DNA of 64,000 nucleotides from Mytilisepta virgata (taxonomy: Eukaryota; Mollusca; Bivalvia; Mytilida; Mytilidae): positions 33,866,230 to 33,930,229 of the forward strand of contig CM051516.1 in the NCBI GenBank assembly GCA_028015205.1, given 5' to 3'. Positions 8,946-48,705 of this stretch are shown here, piece after piece. The notes beneath the pieces were generated by a model, which saw only the letters and a program-made list of their open reading frames with translations, did no database searches and was not told where the DNA came from. The translations under genes were made by a program, and so were the position numbers. The stretch's first letter is position 1; each line of letters begins with the position of its first letter.

Positions 8946-10248
8946 AATTTGCTAATCAACAGCCATTAAAAGCACCTAACAAAAATAGCAGTCCAGATTA
9001 TTGTACATAATTCTGAGACTGAGAGAGGACCATCTAATAACCAGGCTGCCAAGTCTTTTTGGAAATAGTTTCGTTTCATTCACAATTCCATAGTAAGAAT
9101 AAGCTATCTTAAAACAGTTTCCAACTGTCGGTCAAACAATTTAAATCATCATAAATAATTGCCATAAAACAACCAGGGGTTCGCTTTATTTTTATTTTTT
9201 CACTTGTGGAAAAAAAGAGTTGACTCGCTATGTAAAAACAGACTCCGTCAGGTTAGGGGAAAAAGACAATCATTTTTCCATGGCCTAAGGACCATTGCGG
9301 CCAACTCTGGTTCAAACTGGTCAAATGGTTCTAGACAAGAAGATTTTTAAATGAATTTTCCAATTGGGTCCTACATGTATGTTAAACTAATTTCGGCTCT
9401 TGTGGCCATCTTGGTTGACAATCTGGGTCATTGGACATAATATAATTCTGAAATAGGACAATCTATTCAGGACCACTGTTGCCAAACAGTTCGCAAATTA
9501 TTAAACAGAAGCTTGATTCAGAGTTGACAAAATCGTAAACATAACAGATTTTAAGGATTATGTACCCTTTTGTTGTTTCAATGCTAAACATTTGGAAATT
9601 TTATAGAAAATCCTCAGCCTCTCCCCTTGTACTCTTATATTTAAAAATTCTTTACTTGATAGGGAATTACTGAATGCAGTGCTAACAATGTTTCCCTAAA
9701 ACAAGTTTTTAAATAAAGATAATAGTTAAAACAAGTACAAATATAGACCTATTCAAGTACACCTTCTAGGATGCCCTTGACTTTGATAACTCACCTTGAG
9801 GTTTTTAGGATTGTAAAGGTTGTTTAGGCTTTTTTGTAAACAATAAACACTAGCACATCATGGACAAAGAAGTGAGTAATCTATGTTTGAACTGTCACTT
9901 ATAACGAAAATTTCTGTAATAAAGTCTGTGGATTTTCTGTAAAATTCTTGGCTTGATTAGCCACAAAATCCACATTTTCTATTAAATGCAACGAAACAAT
10001 TAATATTATTGCTGTGAACGACGTTTCCCTTTGTTATATGTACAAAATGGCACCCTGTTTTATTCGGTATTTTTTTCCTGTTTTGATATTATTGTACTTT
10101 AAAAATTTATTAATACACAGGTATACAGAGGGCTCATACACCTTAATCCGTAAGCATTAATATGTAACGGGCTTCCCTCGATAAATATAGAAGTTATAGA
10201 ACCATAACAGGTTTATAACCACCCTCCATTAGCTGCGCTAGTGGAGTA

Positions 10249-10321
10249 CTCCTTTAGCTCAGTTGGTAGAGCGGTGGACTACTGAACCAAAGGTTCCGGG
10301 TTCGATCCCTGGTTGGTGCGG
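10249..10321 (+). pseudogene. tRNA-like sequence with intact Pol III A and B boxes
   Basis: TAGCTCAGTTGGTAGAGC gives a perfect D arm and A box; CCGGGTTCGATCCCTGG gives a T arm and B box. The anticodon stem has mismatches at its ends and the seven-base acceptor arms do not pair, so a working tRNA is unlikely. It may be a decayed tRNA gene or the head of a SINE whose body I cannot define. Confidence 0.6.
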
Positions 10322-21900: not shown

Positions 21901-24900
21901 TCATTGATTTTTTGCAAATGACTGGAAATTCATCTGAAAAATGTATAAATTGTGACTACTGTAATCAGTGATAAATTTATGATTCAGTATGTCAGTTTGA
22001 TTTGTTAGGTACATGTATATTCTCCACTTTTGCTATATGGTAGTTGTCTCCTATTTAAGGAGTTATCTGCTCTTTGGAGAAGGCGTCTTCCATAGATTTC
22101 AATGGACAAATTGTCATATTACATGTATCTTGATTGACAACGGTTGCTAGTTTTCCTGCTGAAATTCCATGGTTCTCTCCAGTAATCCAGTTTCTTCTAC
22201 TAATAAAAATGACAGCAATAAAGTTGCCCATTGTGCTGAAAGTGATGTTAAACTTGAACAAAACCATTTAAAGCAAAATAACAGAACAAGGAACAAACTA
22301 AAAATAGGCACAAAAGGGGATAGTAGAGTGTTTATGTATAAGTATACCTTGTAAACTGGTTTGTCTGTTCCTTCACATAAATCCATGATGGATTCAGGAC
22401 TCATATAGTTTAACGTTCCCACTGTTGTATCTGTCAGAACACTTGTTTTGTCGGGTTGGACTGATTTAGCAATTCCAAAGTCTATAAGTTTTAATTTTCC
22501 ACCAATAATAATAAAATTTGACGGTTTCAAATCTGAATGAATAATACCTGAAAATCACCAAGTAAATACATGTATTTTATAAATACTAGTACCTGAAAAT
22601 CACCAAGTAAATACATGTATTTTATAAATACTAGTACCTGAAAATCACCAAGTAAATACATGTATTATATAAATACTAGTACCTGAAAATCAGGGTATGA
22701 ATAGAATTAAATATACAGGAAAATTCAAGACTAAATGTGTTTGGAATAATAAAGTAATAGGCACATACTAGTCATGTGACTAATTCTTAATTTTTTGCCA
22801 TATTTAACTTCAAATTTCATTACTAAAAGACCCAGAAAAACAGTTTAAGTTATTATGTATTTCAAAAGAGAAGTAGATCTGAGGATGGGACTTTATAAAG
22901 TCAACTCTCGTTATCTCAAAATCCTTCGGAGCACAAAAAATTAGAGATTGACAAAATTTGATTCAAAAGGAGCTAACAAATTTTCACAGTTACCAAGGGG
23001 AGATAATTTACTACTTCTGGTAAATCTAAAATCTGTGCAGATGCTGGAGTAAAACAAAACTTTACAAGTACTTTCGATACCTCAATTTATTCATCCATGA
23101 TCTGATAATTATGTAATACATGTAGAATGTACTTTGTTTACATCTTTTAAGTTGATTAATTTGTTAATTATAAACATTTGTAGATAAACTGACACTAATT
23201 AAATAACTAAAGGTGAATTGTTTTTTACAAATCAAACTGAATTTACAAGAAAATCAATAGCACAAAAAACCAATAGACATCTATTGTCAATTAACGGAAA
23301 TAATCCTAACCTGTGAAGACAAAAATTATAAAAAGAACAAATAAATTTTTTGTTCTTTTTATAATTTGGACTCAAAATTTACTTTGAGATAGAAGAAAAT
23401 TTGACTAAATAGGAATCAAAATACATATATTTGCAATGATAAACATTTGAGACCACATAAAAATTCCACGCAAGCGAGTTTGAGATAACAAGAGTTGACT
23501 GTATTTGACAAATCTTTGTTGAGTAAATAAAATTCTAATGTTATTTTTCAAGTCATTAAGTTTTCTTTAGCATTCTAATACAATAAACAAGGAATATAAC
23601 AAAAAGAAACATTTAAATATAAATTTAAATCCTCATATTGCAAATGGATTGCAATATCTTCACATATGAGCAAAATGTCAGATTTTCAAGATTTTCTCCT
23701 GAATATGATATTTCTCTAGTCTTTTATTTTAATTTGTGCAATAGAGCTTACATGTTGAAAATTTAAAGGGAAAGGAAATGATGCTGATTTAAGGGTCATA
23801 ATTAATGTAAATATACTTAAGAAAGTTAAAGCAAAAAAAAATTTAACTAAAAAATACTTCTAAGTGTATATTTTCACGTTTGTTCAAATGAAACATTTTG
23901 AATTTCCCGCTTCTGTGCGCGCAGACATATTATTGATTATCGTGACGTCACACCTTCTATTCCGGTTTACCTGTCCAGCCACTGTATCAGTATTTCTCCC
24001 ATTTCCAAAATCGAAAAGAAAAAGTGAGAATTAAATTTAAACAAAATGGCAAATAATGAGAACCAGATGGGTTTAGTTGCATATAATTTTGAACCAGAAC
24101 TAACGGAGGAAGAAATCGCCGAACGAAACAGGCAAACACAGTCAAATGCGTCAGCCGAAATCCAACCTCTCGAAGAATGGTGCCAGTGTGGGAAATGTCA
24201 ACAAATGCCCGTCGAAGAATGTGTTTGTTGCCGAGACTCGGATCTTGTTTTGCCGAATTTAGAAGACCACGAGTGCATAACACTGCATGACAATTACGAT
24301 ATTTTAATATTAAATCCAGACGTGTTATCGATAGCGTACATCCAGATGATGATGTTCAAAGGACAACAAGGTCGAGCCCCCGACCAATTGAATAACAGGT
24401 TATTTTTTCCAAATGATCTTTGTTTTTTATACAAATAAACTACAACAACGTTATAGAATGTGATTCCTTCCTCAGTTCAGTTCATAACGTAGACCACTGA
24501 ACAAACATACATTTACAGATGGGGGGGGGGGGGGGGGGGGGGGGGGCAATGCACACATCTTAAAGGGTCTTAAAAAAATGCAGACATTGTAATGCTATTT
24601 TTTACTGCTTTATGTTGAATTTGGAGAGGTTGGATGAAAACATACATAATTGCGAAGTGCAGGAGCAAGTTCTATCTCTGTTTTATTTCTATTTAGGCCA
24701 AATAAAGATGTGTGTTTGGGTAAACATGTTAACATGCTGAAATAACATACAGGATATAGGAAGGCAAAACGTTCTATTTGAATATTTTTTCCTGGTTTAT
24801 ATAAGGTAGACATCTTGAAATTAATACTGCTTCATGTATTATATCTGATGGTAGGGTTAACCTAAACACAGCTATATTTTTATTCAGCCTTGTGTGTTGA

Positions 24901-27900
24901 AACAATTCAGTTGAATGAGACAACACTCACATTCTTTAAATTTGTGGTTTTCTTATTTTATATTTAAATGTGCATGTTTTTGGCTTCAAGCTGAACTGAC
25001 CAGACATGGTTTGTTGAAACTCATAAGCATGTACCGGGTAAAAATATGAATGAGGAGTAGACTTGAATCTAATGGCCAAGGAAAGTTAAAATCTTGCATT
25101 AGCTATGATTTTATATAATTTCCAGTCATTCTAGTAACTTGGGTTCCAATTGATGAATTTCAGTCGCTAACCGAGACATACATAATGTACCGAACCTTGT
25201 ATCAGTCAACAAGTTTTAATGTTGAACATAAATTAAAGGCCAAGTGAATAAGCAATTTGCTTAACAGGTACATTGTAGTTGGCCTAAGTTCTAAGTTCCA
25301 GATACTCAATTGGAAAAAATGTTTTAAATGACATGTACACCCATTCACAGAATAAATCCGATGTTACACATGCATGCACCCATAAATCAGCATATTTTAA
25401 TATATTTCCATGCATGTTTCGATACAATTGCAATCTGCTTGCAAATTGAAGTTTTTCTATGTATTGCAGGCAATCCCGTCTTGTCGCTTATAGGCAGTTT
25501 GTGTGTTGGATGTTGAGGGGTGAGAAACTTGGGAAAGGTAAAAGAGTGGTCATTCCTTCTTGTGTGGTGAAAACAATTAGAGAAGCATTTCCAGATGCAA
25601 ACAATGACTACACAGGATTTAAGCTTGCTGTAGAGAGTGCTCGTGACCTTTTTCAGTAAAATTAAAGTTGTCTGTGCACATTTTAACAAAGAAAAAAACT
25701 TTGTACGAGATATTTTTATAGAAGAAAATAGACTGGAGGACAAAAATATTGCCAATTCTATATTCTGCATCTAATAGAATGTGATCACTGTTTTACCTGG
25801 CCTTCCTTAAAGGCAAATCTAAGTCTAATTAAAGTTTACCTGTGACTTAATAAAGGTCAACAATTTTTCTGGGTACTTTTGCTTCCTCCAATTCAATAAT
25901 AAAAAAGATCCCCATGAAAAGGTTGGAATAAACCATTCAAAACAAATCAAAGGGGGCATGCTCCAACCAATTTGGTGAAAACAATTGTATCCCTAGTGAC
26001 AGTTCTGTGCAAACCATTGCTTACATGTACGAAACCTTTGAAGGGCAATGACAGACATGTACAAGCATCTTTAAATTGCAGAATAAAAATTTTAATCACA
26101 AAACATACATCCAACAAATAAAATAGTAATCACAGCAGCTTACATCAGATTGTGCATTAAATAAATCACGAAATATAAATAAACAAATTATCTATCAGAA
26201 TCAATAATAAGTAAGTTATTGATGTTTAGTGTCACCTTGACAATAATTCAGTTACTGAATACAGGTTAATTATTACTCGCTGGATGTTAAACATCAAACA
26301 ATCAATCATATTTATGGTACGAGAGACCCCGAACTGCAAATGTTCTGTTTTCATATTTATGGTACATGTATACCATATTTTAAATGTTAATACAGACTCA
26401 TTAAAAATAACCCCCCGGGGTATAGAAATAGAACCCAGCTCCTCCGGCTTTTGGTGTGGAACCCCTGGGGCGTTCGTGGTTGTGCAGGTGAAAAAAAATG
26501 CACAACCAACGTCCGTCTGAAACGAACACTTAAATGCGAGGTCCCGTGTTTGGAGAATGCCACGCTCTCTGCATAGGTGGTCCATAGGTGGCCCGTTGCA
26601 AGGCTAAAATTGTCCGACCCTATCCATTGTAACCTCTTTTTCCAGTGGCAGTCAAAATTATCTGCCCATTTGCCTATCCCATTGCCCCATATTGATGCAT
26701 TGCTTGAAAACTTGTTCACGTCCTGAATATAGCTGAAATATTGCTCACTGAATGTTAAACAATAACCAATCAATCAATCAATGTAAACTTGTTCATGTCC
26801 TGAATATAGCTGAAATATTGCTCACTGGACGTTAAACAATAACCAATAAATCAATCAAATATGGAAAGGTTAATATACAAAGTTTTAAGATAATTTAAAT
26901 CTTGAACAAAGATTCTGAATCATTTCAGCTTTCGATGGAGCAGGCACAGGTGCAATGTTTCCTTCATCTGACCTTTCTTTTACTGGTAGTGCAAAAGTAT
27001 CCTTCTGAACAAGTACATTCTCCATCATGGCAAATACCCACTGATACGATTTCTCCCTAAATATAGGCTTTGCTACCCACTGTCCAGTTGCTTTTGGACA
27101 TACTAATTTGTATGCTTTCTCTCCATCTTTGTTTATTTTTTGTCCTCGATTTTGATTTAAATTGTGATCAATCACAGCCAATGCAGTTCTTGTCCACATT
27201 TGATCGGAATCAAATTCCTGACGTTTTGGTGTATATTTCAACATCAAACTGTGAAACACTTCTAAATTGCCAGTGTGACAAAATTCGTTTAACTGACGAA
27301 TATCCTTCCTAAGTCGCTTATCAAGAATAATTTCTTTTAGTGCTTTGTGTGCCTTTGAATCTTTGATCAGCCATTTCTTTGTTTCTGCCACTTCCGGTTG
27401 TATTGGAGTATGAGCACATTGTGTAAAAACTTTACCATCAAAAGTATGCTCATTTACAATGTGATTTACTATTGATATCCAACTTTCTTCCAGAAAATTT
27501 TTATCCCCACCGCAATTACTTGCACACCACCATAAATGATTGCATACAGATTTAATCCATACATTTAAGTCCTCACAACCTTTTACTTTGGCCTTTGCTG
27601 TCAGTTTTTTCTTGACAGATTTACATAAATGCCATACATCAAACTGATGTTGCACATCTGAATACTCCTTATTCATAATACTGCGTATTTGAACATGACG
27701 ATCTGTGGCTAATATTTCGATTTTAAATCCCTCATTAAGTAAATAAGTCATACATCTTCTAAATCCTTCAACTTCCATTTTTGAAGAAGAGCCAGTTTCA
27801 GTCACCTTGACTACAACAAACATCACAATATGTTGTGTATCAATGTCAAGTAGTGAATAAGTACAATATTTAGCACTAAAACCAGGGGAATCACACCGTC

Positions 27901-30900
27901 CATCACCAGCAAGTCTTAAAGGTCTATTTTGCTCCCTTATTTTCTTTAGTTCAACATCTTGCAGTAAAGACCAAGTGTGATTTACGACGGGCATTAAACA
28001 CTGTCTTTGGATTTTGTTATAGGTTGTGTGGGAAATAAATTTTAAGTTCAAAAAATCTGCGTACTGTGATATGTGGCTGTAAGTTTGCCCACAAAAAAGA
28101 GTTGCTGCACTAACTAAAAGGTTGCCAACAGGCATCTTGCCAAGAAATGGTTGTGAACTCCATTTTATTATCAAATGGCCACTTGTACAGAAAACAGAGA
28201 TTGTAATGACCGAACCATCAGATAAGTCTTTCAAGGTGTCATCTGGATCTGCTGGACAGTCACAAATGCTACATTTTAATTTGTTTATCAAATTTGTGAT
28301 AGCGCTTTCAAAAACAATAAATTTATTTTCTTTAATATAAAGTTGTTCAGGTGTATATTGGATAGGTTCTATACAATCGTCTTCACTTTCAGTTGGATCC
28401 GATTCAACTATATAATCAGCATCTCCATTGTCATCTTCGTGTGTAAGACTTACGAAAGACTGGTCCAAATCGGATTCCGATTTCACTGGTGAACAAGTTA
28501 ATTCTGTACATTTCTCAAAATTTATCTTTTCAGGAGTAGATGTAACAAAATTTGGTGTTTTTGTGTGAACTTGTGATTCTTTCGGTATGACTGGAATTTC
28601 TTCGAAAACTTTATAGTAGCTATGATCTCTTACAGTTAAACTTTTATGTCCTTTAATCCTTTGACAAATTTCGCATGGATGACCACATGGAAGAATGTCT
28701 GATACATTTACCAAAGGTATACATGTAGGATCCTCCGGAACATCAATATTCTGAAATTATAAAAAGTACACTTCAATTATTCAAATTACATTTTTAGTAC
28801 ATTTGAACATTTGATACATGGGAAATGGGACCATGTTAAGACAACTAAAACAGCATACTATTCAAATATATCTAGAAATACATGTAGGACATGTAGGCCC
28901 ATAGAAAATTAAAGAAAAAAGTCTGATCACAAATAATTAGTTTAATTATACATGTAATGTTCACTAAAAACTTTGATTATTTAGTTAAATTTGATTAATG
29001 AATTTTAATTAAATAATTATTTATATCAAAAGGTAAGGCCAAAAAAAATATCCGTGTTTCCTCTAACCCTATTTTTTGTGCCTATGTATACCCTAAAGTT
29101 TTTTTGACATTTTGGAACAAGCACTATTAAGTCATGTTGTGTCCTCTGTATAACCTAGGTAAAAAGTTCAAAAATAAAAATTTTGCCTACCTACCTACCC
29201 TAATTTTTTTTCAGTATGTTAGTGGAAACACAGGTATTTTTTTTTGGCCTAACTTTAGAAACAAGTGAATCAACAATTAAGCTGGGAGTGTGAACAAAAA
29301 TTATCAAACTTCTTTGATATATTTATTTTAATTGACAGTACAAAGCAAACTTTTTTTTAAATCAGTTTTATACATAACCAATTTCCTGTTGAGCAAATGG
29401 ATCCAAGTTGATGAAAGTTTTGTTTGTACAACAATTCATACTTTAGTTGGGCCTAACTTACCCTAATTTTTCCAGTATGTTAGTAGAAACACATATGTTT
29501 TTATTTGTAAATGTTAATTTTTAAGTCATTCAGAAAAAATATTGTCACTGAACTTGGCTTTTCATGCATACACGTACCAACAAGGTAAACTTTTTCAAGT
29601 AAAAATAAATTGATTGATTGAATAGGGTTTTTACGCCACTTTCAACAATATTTCAGTTATATCGTGGCGACCAGTTTTAGTGGTGGAGGAAGCTGGAGTG
29701 CCCGGAGAAAACCACCGACCTTGGGTAAGCAACTGGTTAACTTTATCACATGCGGATGTGAGTCGAGTGCACCTTTTTTTGTAATTGCCCAAAGCGGGGA
29801 TCAAACTCGCACCGTATTGGTGATAGGCTACAGTGATGTATACTGGTAGATGCGACCAACTATCTAGACCACTCGGCCACCCAGGCCCCAGTAAAAATAA
29901 AATAACATTGCGCATGATGCATGTAAGTGGAAAAACATGTATTAATATTACATGTACGTATGTACATGTAGCTCGCTAGATTTCATTTAGCCCAAATAAG
30001 ACATTGTGAGAATATTTATATATATATTTGGCTTGTAGAAATTTTGGAATGGGACCCAACCTCTGATTTTACAGATCGCCACCAATATTTAGTTGATCTT
30101 TACATACAATCTATTTATTCTTACCTCACATGAATTGGAAACTTCAACTAACTGCTGAGGACTTCCAGATGCATCCGTGGTAGTTCGAAATTTCTTTGGT
30201 CTAGTTGCTTTGCTTTTGCTTTCTGAGCCTTTTCTTTTAGTGGGTACTGTCTTTGTTGTAACCTCACAATGAGATTCTTTCTCTCCTCTTACACAGGATG
30301 TCAAGCTACTTCTAAGCTGAAAAAGTAATATAATTTAAATTGAGTGTTGTTTGTGTGCTACAGTCTAAAATCAATAATCAAATATACAAATTTAAGCATG
30401 GAAATACATTTCTAAAGTACAATATAAACACTTGCTAAACAGAATTGGACAATCATACATGTAAATAAACAATTACTCTTATATACCATGATGTCGAAAA
30501 TGCAATCAGATACCCTGCATTATTCATCCTTTATCATAAGATAAGGTAAAATTCCTGAGAGACCCTACCCCTAAAATATTGAAAGCTATCTTTTTGCATT
30601 GATCGTAGGATCATGGTATAAATATACACCATTGGGCTAACGTCCTCCGGGGTATAATTATTACAATTTACATATTACATATCCACAGTTGTGCAGTTAT
30701 TCAGGATGAATATACATGTACTGACTTATTAACTAATAGATGTAGTATAATGATCCAAGTTTACATTGTCATTTAGCTACATGTAGTCTATTCAGGTTGT
30801 CTACATCAATGTGTCAAATTAAGAATGGTTTGTGGTCAAGAATGATTCATTTTTTGTGTGTATAGCAATCAATAAACAATATAAATGTATACGTAAAAAT

Positions 30901-33900
30901 TATGCGAACAAGGATTCTTCCCCTGCAAGAAGGCCTTTCCTTTCTGGATCAGTGTCAAATATGGGATAGAGCTTCATCACCACCCTCCCCCTTCCTACCA
31001 AATTATGAAATACACATGTAGGAATTGTCGGTGCATCGTGTACATGTATATTGCTGAATTTGCTGTGGGAACTATAAATTGTAAATTAACAGCGTAAATA
31101 ATATATGGTGCCTGCCCATACTTTCCATGTAACGAGCGTATTTATAATATTCATTTCAGTGACACAATCAAGAAAAAAAAGGGGGGGGGGGGTCATTGTG
31201 TAACACTGTCAAAGTCTTGAATGTTTGGTTCAGACATGTCAGATGAAGGGTTTCACATATAATAACTACCTGTGCTTTTTTCCTCTTCTCGAGTAACAGT
31301 GATGTGGATTTCCTTTCCTTAGGACGTCGATCAACTGTACCAGGACCTGGTTTAACTATTGTTGGTATCGATCCTTCCTTCAGAACTGGTTTTGTTTTGA
31401 AACCTAACGACTCTGCGATTTGATTTCTATCAAAACATGTTTCCTCGAAATGATCCTCACAGACGACTCTACTTTTGCTCCAAACAAAAGTTTCAATGTT
31501 CAGTTTATCGTTACGCAGGTGATCGATCCATAATTTACAGAGTCTCCTTTTCTCGCTAGACTTTAATGGGTCCGGAATTTCAAAAAAACTCTTCGCACAT
31601 TTCCCTCTTGTATTGGTACAATTGATTGCTTGACATGAAGGCATAATTAGGAACAAATTTCAATAACTTTCAATGAACTTCGTGTCAGGATACAAACCGG
31701 AATATAAGGTATGACGTATGATTTGATACTTTTTGTGCTCTTCACTACGAAAGAGCTCTACAATATGTCAACTCGCGGTAACTGGCGGGAAATTCAAAAT
31801 TTTAACTTTAGAACTGTGTGCGTTGGTCATATACGGGGGAAATGACAAAACATAATTTGTAAATTTTATTTTTATGAATAATACTTTTAACTGAACCCCA
31901 AAAATACGGTGGGTTTCCTTCTCCTTTAAATTCAAACATTTCAAGTATGTATATTTCTTCTTTTTTATACTATAACTGTACCTTCTTTATGTAAAGCATG
32001 AACTGCCATCAGCATTGACTCCCAGTAATATTTGATTAAATGATTTGATAGCTTGCCATCTTCTTTTATTGTATCTTTTAGCAGCTTTCCAAAATCATGA
32101 TTGCCATATTCCATTACTATAAATAGTTTCTGTTCCTCAGGTCGGTATTCACTATACATAAATATTACATATCAATTAACAAGTTTCCAAATTAACACTT
32201 ATTACCTCCCCTGATTTTGCTCTGGCTTTACCTTTATTATTGTGTATTGGGAATGCCACTATTGGCAATAAAAAACTCATTATAGGAATGGCATCTATAT
32301 TGTAAATAAGAATGTATGGATCCAACACAAATATCATGCATTACATACTGTGTTGGACTAAGTTTATTGATAGTGCTAACAAGACGTTGATGGAAAATAC
32401 TCAAGTTTTGGGCAGTAACTCCCACAAAAATTATCCGGGAGCACTCATTTTCGAACTTGATCAAGGTATCTTCAATATAGATTTGGTAAAAATCCATCAA
32501 GAACTGTAGAATTGAGCTTGCTAACAAAATCTGAATGGACGGACAAACAGACGCCGTCATTTCTACGTATGTCTCCCGCAAAACATGTTGCGGTGGGGAG
32601 CAATAAATCCTTAGTACAGTGTAACCTATCTAAACCAATCACTATTCAAAGCAAAAGCACTCTGAACCAAACACATGTATTAGAATGTGCAATGAATATT
32701 CTATAGTAAATGAACCTGTGTAAACCATGAAAACACCTGTCAACTCGTAATATGAGCATAATCTTTGTTAAAATCAGGCTTTTGTTTAGAAATATCTTAC
32801 TGTATGCGATTATTTCACTTACTAATCATAAATCTTGATAACTTTTGGACAATACTGAAGCTGTAATAATAAATTCACTTCATTTTTGTATCCATTTATA
32901 ATTTCCTCGTTGGCATCATTTAAATTAACAACCTTCATAGCTTTTGTTGGAGGTTTGGAATCATATACTTGATATACCTACAATACACAGAAGTAACTGC
33001 ATTACATGTATTAATTATTTTCATAATTATACTATTACTTATCTTTATACTGAGTTAATACTCTGAAAGTAACACCTAGTGACTTATAAATTTTTACATG
33101 TTTTCTAAAAATAAAAATTTTTTAAATGAAGAAAATATTGCAAATGTAAATGTACTTTTAAAAAGAACAACTAGAATTAATTCTCATATCAATTTAAAAC
33201 GAAAACGCTATTAATTTAATAATGGCATAACTTAATCTACCTTAATTCTTATTTAAGAAATATAAGACTATAGTTACCTTACTGGATCCCCCTTGTCCTA
33301 TCATCTCAATTATCATGTATACTACACCATTGACAGTAATAGTCTCTACATCTTTCATAACACCACTGGGTGTAAATGGTACTGATATCTGATTCGACTG
33401 AATACTAACACTAGGGGTTGCACATATTGGTACATGAGAGGAAAGATTTGACCTACAATAAGAAACAAATTAGACCTACTATCAGAAGCAAATCTGGACT
33501 GTTTGAAAAGTAAAAGTATGGATATACATGTACATGTAACATGCTTACTTAGAGCTCTATACAAATGTAACCATGGTAACAATACACATCAAAATTATAT
33601 GATTTCTAAATTACTTTTTCAGTTTAGGTTACTGAGAGGTGTAACTTATCACAAAGCTTTATAAAGGTAATTCTGGCATCGACATAAGAATACCCGTCTA
33701 TCTTGCATGTTGGTGAGGCAAAAACTGAATTATTTGGATTACCTGACACATTGCCACTGAGAATGTTCTGCTATTTCTTAGACATAGAAATGATGACATC
33801 AATGTAAAAAAAAGAAAACAGCAGTCAAATTGAATTTTCTTTCATCACTGTTTGAAGGCATCCTCTGTCCTCCCAGTAGTTATAGCAAATAATAACTGCA

Positions 33901-47840: not shown

Positions 47841-48705
47841 CTACAACATCAGATATATATGAATACGAAGACCCATTGGTAGCCTTGAGCTGTTTTCTGC
47901 TCTTTGGTCAGGTTGTTGTCTCTTTGACGCATTCCCCGTTACATACCTTGTCATTGGTAGAGATAAATCATACTTTGTTAAAAACCACTTTAAATCTAAC
48001 AAAAAATATACAGAGGACGAAATTGTCCGGATGATTGAATTTTTGATTGACAACATATTTGTTCAATTTGGTGGACGTGTTTTCCAACAGACAATTGGCA
48101 TTCCTATGGGTACTAATTGTGCGCCACTACAGGCCGACTTGTTCCTTTACTCATATGAGGCAGATTTCCTTGACGGGCTTCTTAAGGAAAAACAGAAGAA
48201 GTTAGCCTGTACCTTTAATTTCAGCTTCCGCTACATAGATGATGTTTTATCACTCAACAATTCACATTTTGGGAATTTCTTACATCTCATTTATCCCAAT
48301 CAGCTCGAAATTAAGGATACCATAGACACTGCCAAGTCTGCATCTTATCTTGACCTTCACCTCGAAATTGACACAAGAGGAAGGTTGAATACAAAACTTT
48401 ACGACAAACGGGATGACTTTGACTTTCCAATCGTCAACTTTCCATTTTTGAGCAGCAATATTCCAGAAGCGCCGGCGTATGGAGTATATATTTCACAACT
48501 CATACATGTACGTTATTCCAGAGCTTGTGACATATACACTGACTTCCTGGACAGAGCCTGGCTCCTGACAGAAAAGTTGCTCAGACAGGGGTACGTTACT
48601 CCTAAGCTGAAGTCATCCTTATTAAACTTTTATGGGCTTCATCATAACTTGGTTGACAGGTATGAAAAAACTGTTTCCCAAATGAAAATGGACCTGTTCC
48701 ATTGA
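47841..48705 (+). pseudogene. Reverse-transcriptase fragment of a retroelement
   Basis: An open frame continuous from about 47925 (VTYLVIGRDKSYFVKNHFKS) to 48705 includes GIPMGTNCAPLQADLFLYSY (finger/palm), the FRYIDDVLSL catalytic box with the DD pair, YLDLHLEID and TKLYDKRDD. This is the C-terminal half of an RT common in bivalve and other animal genomes, possibly Penelope-like; class not settled. It is 5'-truncated. It contains an unusual IHVRYSRAC stretch, where CATGTACGT seems inserted. The flanks carry repeat words also seen at 47700-47760 and 48790-48840 (GGGGTTCATGTTG, GGGGTCCATGTTG). Not a host gene. Confidence 0.75.

Follow-up and report, generated by a model that had tools for sequence, protein, structure and literature searches.

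Kolobok DNA transposons of the Kol0 lineage, such as Kolobok-1_XT, are described as encoding, next to their DDE transposase, a separate protein, KolX, with the fold of the ballast domain of the P2X7 receptor, and P2X7 and Nanor likely derive from it (Kojima & Bao 2022, PMC9587614). Here we describe a KolX-bearing Kolobok element in a 64,000-nucleotide stretch of the bivalve Mytilisepta virgata (contig CM051516.1 of assembly GCA_028015205.1, positions 33,866,230 to 33,930,229; hereafter the window). The central idea, that KolX is the ballast protein and the source of P2X7, is already published in that work, and the element is a further member of the Kolobok/KolX elements, unusually intact and recent. 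What is new is a very recent burst of nine copies with intact KolX and no relics found, the mirrored ends of the element, a tail-to-tail pairing of KolX and transposase in five groups of one genome, and remains of a transposase next to the ballast type nearest to P2X7.

As in the published Kol0 description, the element has TTAA flanks, RR/YY ends, a DDE transposase, and a separate KolX gene with the ballast fold and seven cysteines; it is set apart from that description as a putative new family, in a bivalve host, with near-identical copies. The Kolobok and T2-MITE (miniature inverted-repeat transposable element) sequences of Xenopus (Hikosaka & Konishi 2018, PMC6004289) resemble it in TTAA, in AGGRR-type ends and in a transposase with THAP and DDE parts, and a putative H2CH zinc finger is named there for Kolobok. 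A Xenopus A2 end listed there begins AGGAGAAGGAAA, as does the right end of our element. P2X is nowhere mentioned in that article, whereas the present element has a P2X7-ballast gene. KolX shares its fold, cysteines and two arginines with the P2X7 ballast, with Nanor and with the invertebrate “P2X purinoceptor 7-like” proteins, but in P2X7 the ballast is fused to an ion channel, whereas here it is a transposon gene of its own. The element has its TTAA target in common with piggyBac, from which it differs in transposase family and ends; a few piggyBac families are described as encoding a KolX-like C-terminus (PMC9587614).

Structure of the element

The element is a Kolobok DNA transposon of 8167 bp, including both TTAA (Table 1). 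The flanking TTAA, the matching inverted termini and the symmetrical subterminal blocks pointed out in the first-pass annotation were all recovered. Inside the TTAA the ends read 5'-AG ... CT-3', the 5'-RR / YY-3' pattern of Kolobok. Comparison of 300 bases of each end revealed two pairs of mirrored blocks, left bases 120-174 facing right bases 116-173, and left 183-206 facing right 213-236. Long terminal direct repeats of the KolobokP type (about 450 or 660 bp) were not found; at 60 nt or longer, the only repeat was an internal 77-nt family, whose unit stands twice in tandem at 26705-26858 and once more, less well preserved, at 26237-26313.

The two predicted genes are arranged tail-to-tail: KolX, of 180 amino acids, in two exons on the plus strand, and the transposase, of 810 amino acids, in three exons on the minus strand, all introns being GT..AG. 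Our models agree with those of the first-pass annotation, in length to the residue; it had announced a full THAP transposase and a second intact spliced gene with the Cys pattern of the P2X7 intracellular domain. Counted from the element ends, the start of KolX is base 284 on the left and that of the transposase base 286 on the right; given the shared blocks, each gene begins behind the same kind of end. A tRNA-derived repeat resembling a short interspersed element (SINE), judged by eye, lies at about 29625-29890 on the minus strand, in a transposase intron.

The open reading frames (ORFs) of both KolX exons match P2RX7_C (PF20478), and the transposase has the THAP domain expected of Kolobok (PF05485) and a match to a Mutator-like transposase (PF20700). 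Its core is predicted to adopt an RNase H fold. D271, D338, D359-V-W-H362 and E485 (numbering of the exon-3 ORF), which conform to the DDE pattern with C/DxxH, are invariant or conserved at 90% or more in 18 relatives, and D271, D338, D359/H362 and E485 are by motif the putative catalytic residues. KolX has the ballast fold, which was shown for a close homologue. Its seven cysteines and two of its arginines, the equivalents of rat P2X7 R546 and R578, are kept across phyla.

Table 1. Coordinates in the window of the ends and exons of the Kolobok element.
Feature	Position	Strand	Evidence
Whole element with both TTAA	23763..31929		nine genome places; 8/8 other copies TTAA-bounded
Left TTAA	23763..23766		sequence read
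Right TTAA	31926..31929		sequence read
Left terminal inverted repeat AGGGAAAGGAAA	23767..23778	+	10/12 bases as in right end
Right terminal inverted repeat AGGAGAAGGAAA, read inwards	31914..31925	-	end comparison
Left subterminal block 1	23882..23936	+	71% to right block 1, E 3e-5
Left subterminal block 2	23945..23968	+	22/24 bases as in right block 2, E 3e-5
Right subterminal block 1	31757..31814	-	mirror partner of left block 1
Right subterminal block 2	31694..31717	-	mirror partner of left block 2
KolX (P2X7 ballast) exon 1	24046..24398	+	PF20478, 8e-8; splice model; frame open in 9/9 copies
KolX exon 2 with stop	25470..25659	+	PF20478, 2e-10; splice model
Transposase exon 1 (THAP domain)	31270..31644	-	PF05485, 4e-12; splice model
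Transposase exon 2	30125..30316	-	splice model
Transposase exon 3 (RNase H/DDE core) with stop	26885..28750	-	PF20700, 2e-9; conserved D, D, DxxH, E; model

A recent burst of nine copies

A 638-base probe from the left end detected nine places in the 1.03-Gb genome. The eight other copies, read with about 800 bp of flank each, all run from TTAA to TTAA, contain the exact first and last 30 bases of the element and differ in their flanks. The TTAA duplication typical of Kolobok therefore surrounds all nine. The first-pass annotation had proposed to look for further copies and to see whether P2X7-C genes lie inside them: all nine carry the gene. Empty sites with a single uninterrupted TTAA were found for two of the nine insertions; they are related repeats and not allelic sites. 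That of L010 is a neighbouring satellite unit, and that of L014 is a SINE-like tail with 78% similarity over 50 bases. The 77-nt unit of the window is similar to this tail.

Identity of the other copies to the window copy was 99.56-99.84% by blastn, one of them (L012) aligning in three pieces (two internal deletions). The first deletion, 147 bp by alignment, begins a few bases from the KolX splice donor, so that splicing of KolX may suffer there; the second, of 89 bp, falls within a transposase intron. The KolX frame is open in all nine copies and the transposase frame in eight, that of L016 being shifted by a 5-bp deletion. Such intact genes in near-identical copies are those expected of an autonomous, active element.

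All 34 substitution columns across the nine copies are singletons, and pairwise differences amount to 0.012-0.18%. This star-like pattern is that of one recent burst. When 140 bases of either end served as probe, in a search that skips very common words, the same nine elements and no other place in the genome were matched, so the burst looks very recent. No MITE or relic of the element's family was found in the genome, in contrast to the Xenopus elements with their T2-MITE. One copy (C9:33707498-33715676) lies on the same contig as the window copy (C9:33889992), about 174 kb away and inverted relative to it, an arrangement such as local hopping gives.

Among the copies, KolX shows no synonymous and one nonsynonymous change, and the transposase two synonymous and ten nonsynonymous changes (one further change in L016 was excluded because of the frameshift). 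Since random changes would be nonsynonymous in 80% of cases for KolX and 79% for the transposase, no selection is visible since insertion.

Ballast genes and transposases in the genome

A census of PF20478 in the genome, in which 150 of 184 candidates were scored, so that counts are lower bounds, gave at least 32 exon matches grouped into at least 22 loci. Nine of the 22 are the present element (K1), and in a total of 18 the ballast gene is accompanied, tail-to-tail, by a Kolobok transposase or by a THAP piece. A nearly complete transposase faces the gene at C6:11275521, and convergent transposase pieces are present at C16:91339 and C14:59814686 (7 kb away in the latter). A convergent THAP piece, partly decayed, stands within about 1.5 kb at C12:52728582 (E 8e-6), C8:47028612 (2e-7), C26:3422109 (4e-4), C13:54341121 (1e-4) and C10:30916275 (7e-4), and C11:79954733 has pieces of the transposase C-terminus in order (4e-5 and 1e-3). 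As a control, reversed sequence (105 kb), the window outside 20-40 kb (44 kb) and four neighbouring 10-kb loci gave no cluster of transposase pieces at E < 1e-3.

No convergent transposase was found at C14:68208576 (20 kb read) or C9:175797 (3.2 kb read). Their DNA is related to that of the K2 (91-92%) and K3 (74-88%) families, which brings the loci belonging to Kolobok repeat families to 20 of 22. A same-strand transposase match at C9:175797 (E 0.002) was taken for noise. The first-pass annotation had named two refuting findings, further copies consistently lacking the P2X7-C gene, and the gene at the same place in relatives without the transposase. Within this genome neither count told against it: all nine copies have the gene, and elsewhere ballast genes mostly accompany the transposase. 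No transposase was found at C34:864932 or C6:41249884 in the 1.5 kb of flank read to either side. Flanks included, these two loci (L028 and L029) share 95% identity over 3.2 kb; they may represent a further repeat family, or else a stand-alone ballast gene that was duplicated.

The pairing extends beyond the PF20478 list: at a transposase locus at C6:6.27 Mb (L056, “K4”), a ballast exon (E 2e-14) follows some 120 bases past the transposase end, on the other strand. Overall, it occurs tail-to-tail in five groups of the genome, namely K1, K2, K3, K4 and the C11 type.

In the window, two exons of a protein kinase gene of the TTK/MPS1 type, both on the minus strand (22147-22530 and 31965-32159), flank the element, which therefore probably lies in an intron of that gene. 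Joined together, they match TTK at E 2e-26; matches to Pfam Pkinase stand at 5e-10 and, below cut-off, 2e-5. Further away, on the plus strand, are a 224-residue ORF at 48031-48705, by eye a reverse-transcriptase fragment, with no Pfam match at E 0.1, and a tRNA-like sequence at 10248-10320 (38 bits, above the Rfam gathering score).

Role of KolX and origin of the P2X7 ballast

KolX is most likely a dedicated transposition cofactor. In the predicted cut-and-paste movement of this nine-copy TTAA-bounded Kolobok transposon, it probably acts, stabilised by zinc, as a partner of the THAP/DDE transposase. What is established here are the ends and TTAA pairs, two open spliced models, the star-like near-identity of the copies, the recurrent pairing, the conservation of KolX and the fold of a close homologue. 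The THAP domain would bind sites near the element ends, and the RNase H core would cut and join; the mirrored ends would drive KolX and transposase expression together, and KolX would enter the transpososome. There its two conserved arginines may, as our preferred guess, hold a guanine nucleotide or DNA phosphate. Such a use of nucleotide would be comparable to that of P-element transposase, in which guanosine triphosphate (GTP) is described as positioning the transposon end (PMC7776569), although a need for GTP in Kolobok is a guess. The P element differs in that its GTP-binding domain is built in and its target duplications are 8 bp long, according to the same source, whereas here the target is TTAA and KolX is separate.

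Several points weigh against this reading. Two of the 22 ballast loci, C34:864932 and C6:41249884, have no Kolobok link. There are also transposase loci without a listed ballast gene (e.g. C3:44.57, C6:42.77, C6:4.19 and C6:50.27 Mb), and the pairing is claimed for the loci read, not for every transposase. Coding changes since the burst look neutral, and selection on KolX is therefore argued only from its wide conservation. Three of the five residues that contact guanosine diphosphate in rat P2X7 are not kept in the element's KolX (H547 is found in 15 of 64, R574 and K583 in 0 of 64), and in the fold comparison retroviral integrases come out ahead of P-element transposase.

The neutral-looking changes would also suit a KolX that is a passenger, a host gene once captured and carried without a role in movement. 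Other Kolobok lineages are described as having other accessory genes, or the transposase only (PMC9587614). We nevertheless hold a passenger to be unlikely, because the pairing recurs in the same tail-to-tail layout in divergent groups (KolX of L049 is 34-49% and its transposase 34-40% identical to those of this element), and because the cysteines and arginines are kept across phyla. KolX might otherwise serve expression or protection of the element, for instance as a regulator of its own promoters or against host silencing, and not the reaction itself. The nearly equal distances of both gene starts from the ends, behind shared subterminal blocks, make a common regulator conceivable, and a transcription role has been suggested for its relative Nanor (quoted in Rump 2020, PMC7016195); we rate this as quite improbable. 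A merely accidental adjacency of the two genes, or of a host gene and a transposon, is refuted by the recurrence of the whole unit at nine places, each time bordered by TTAA, and no point in its favour was found.

The relation of KolX to P2X7 was inspected in an unrooted tree of 65 rows (62 KolX, this KolX, K2 and rat P2X7 471-595), with a long P2X7 branch and a bootstrap that had yet to converge. The present KolX groups with Mytilus (100/96); rat P2X7 clusters first with three unnamed KolX (99/94), and next with Magallana P0203 and Patiria P0224 (95/97). The host C11 gene, outside the tree, is closest by BLAST to the group that rat P2X7 joins, and it adjoins decayed Kolobok transposase remnants. 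The ballast type nearest to P2X7 therefore seems to be transposon-borne here too, which is a lead and not a proof. Vertebrates probably borrowed the P2X7 ballast from such elements, as already proposed in print. The idea that stand-alone P2X7-C proteins are transposon genes, one of which gave the P2X7 ballast, holds as far as tested, and is not new; the first-pass annotation had inferred it for some of these proteins.

The ballast domain has been traced across animals (Rump 2020, PMC7016195), in an article whose main text has no word beginning with “transpos” and whose Figure 6 shows ballast genes in linkage with two marker genes in animals ranging from sponge to mollusc. Both markers may be the Kolobok transposase itself. 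At least in this genome, ballast genes are overwhelmingly transposon genes, which bears on counts of “P2X purinoceptor 7-like” genes and on readings of their conserved neighbourhoods.

The P2X7 ballast domain holds zinc and a guanine nucleotide for reasons described as not known (PMC9859053). It is conceivable, though doubtful, that it is a domesticated transposition cofactor, KolX giving the transpososome a guanine-nucleotide or phosphate module in trans and vertebrates having taken it from the KolX group that rat P2X7 joins. If so, the unexplained guanine-nucleotide site of P2X7 would be a relic of transposition. A family with intact KolX and transposase in near-identical copies is a natural test bed for what the ballast fold was for.
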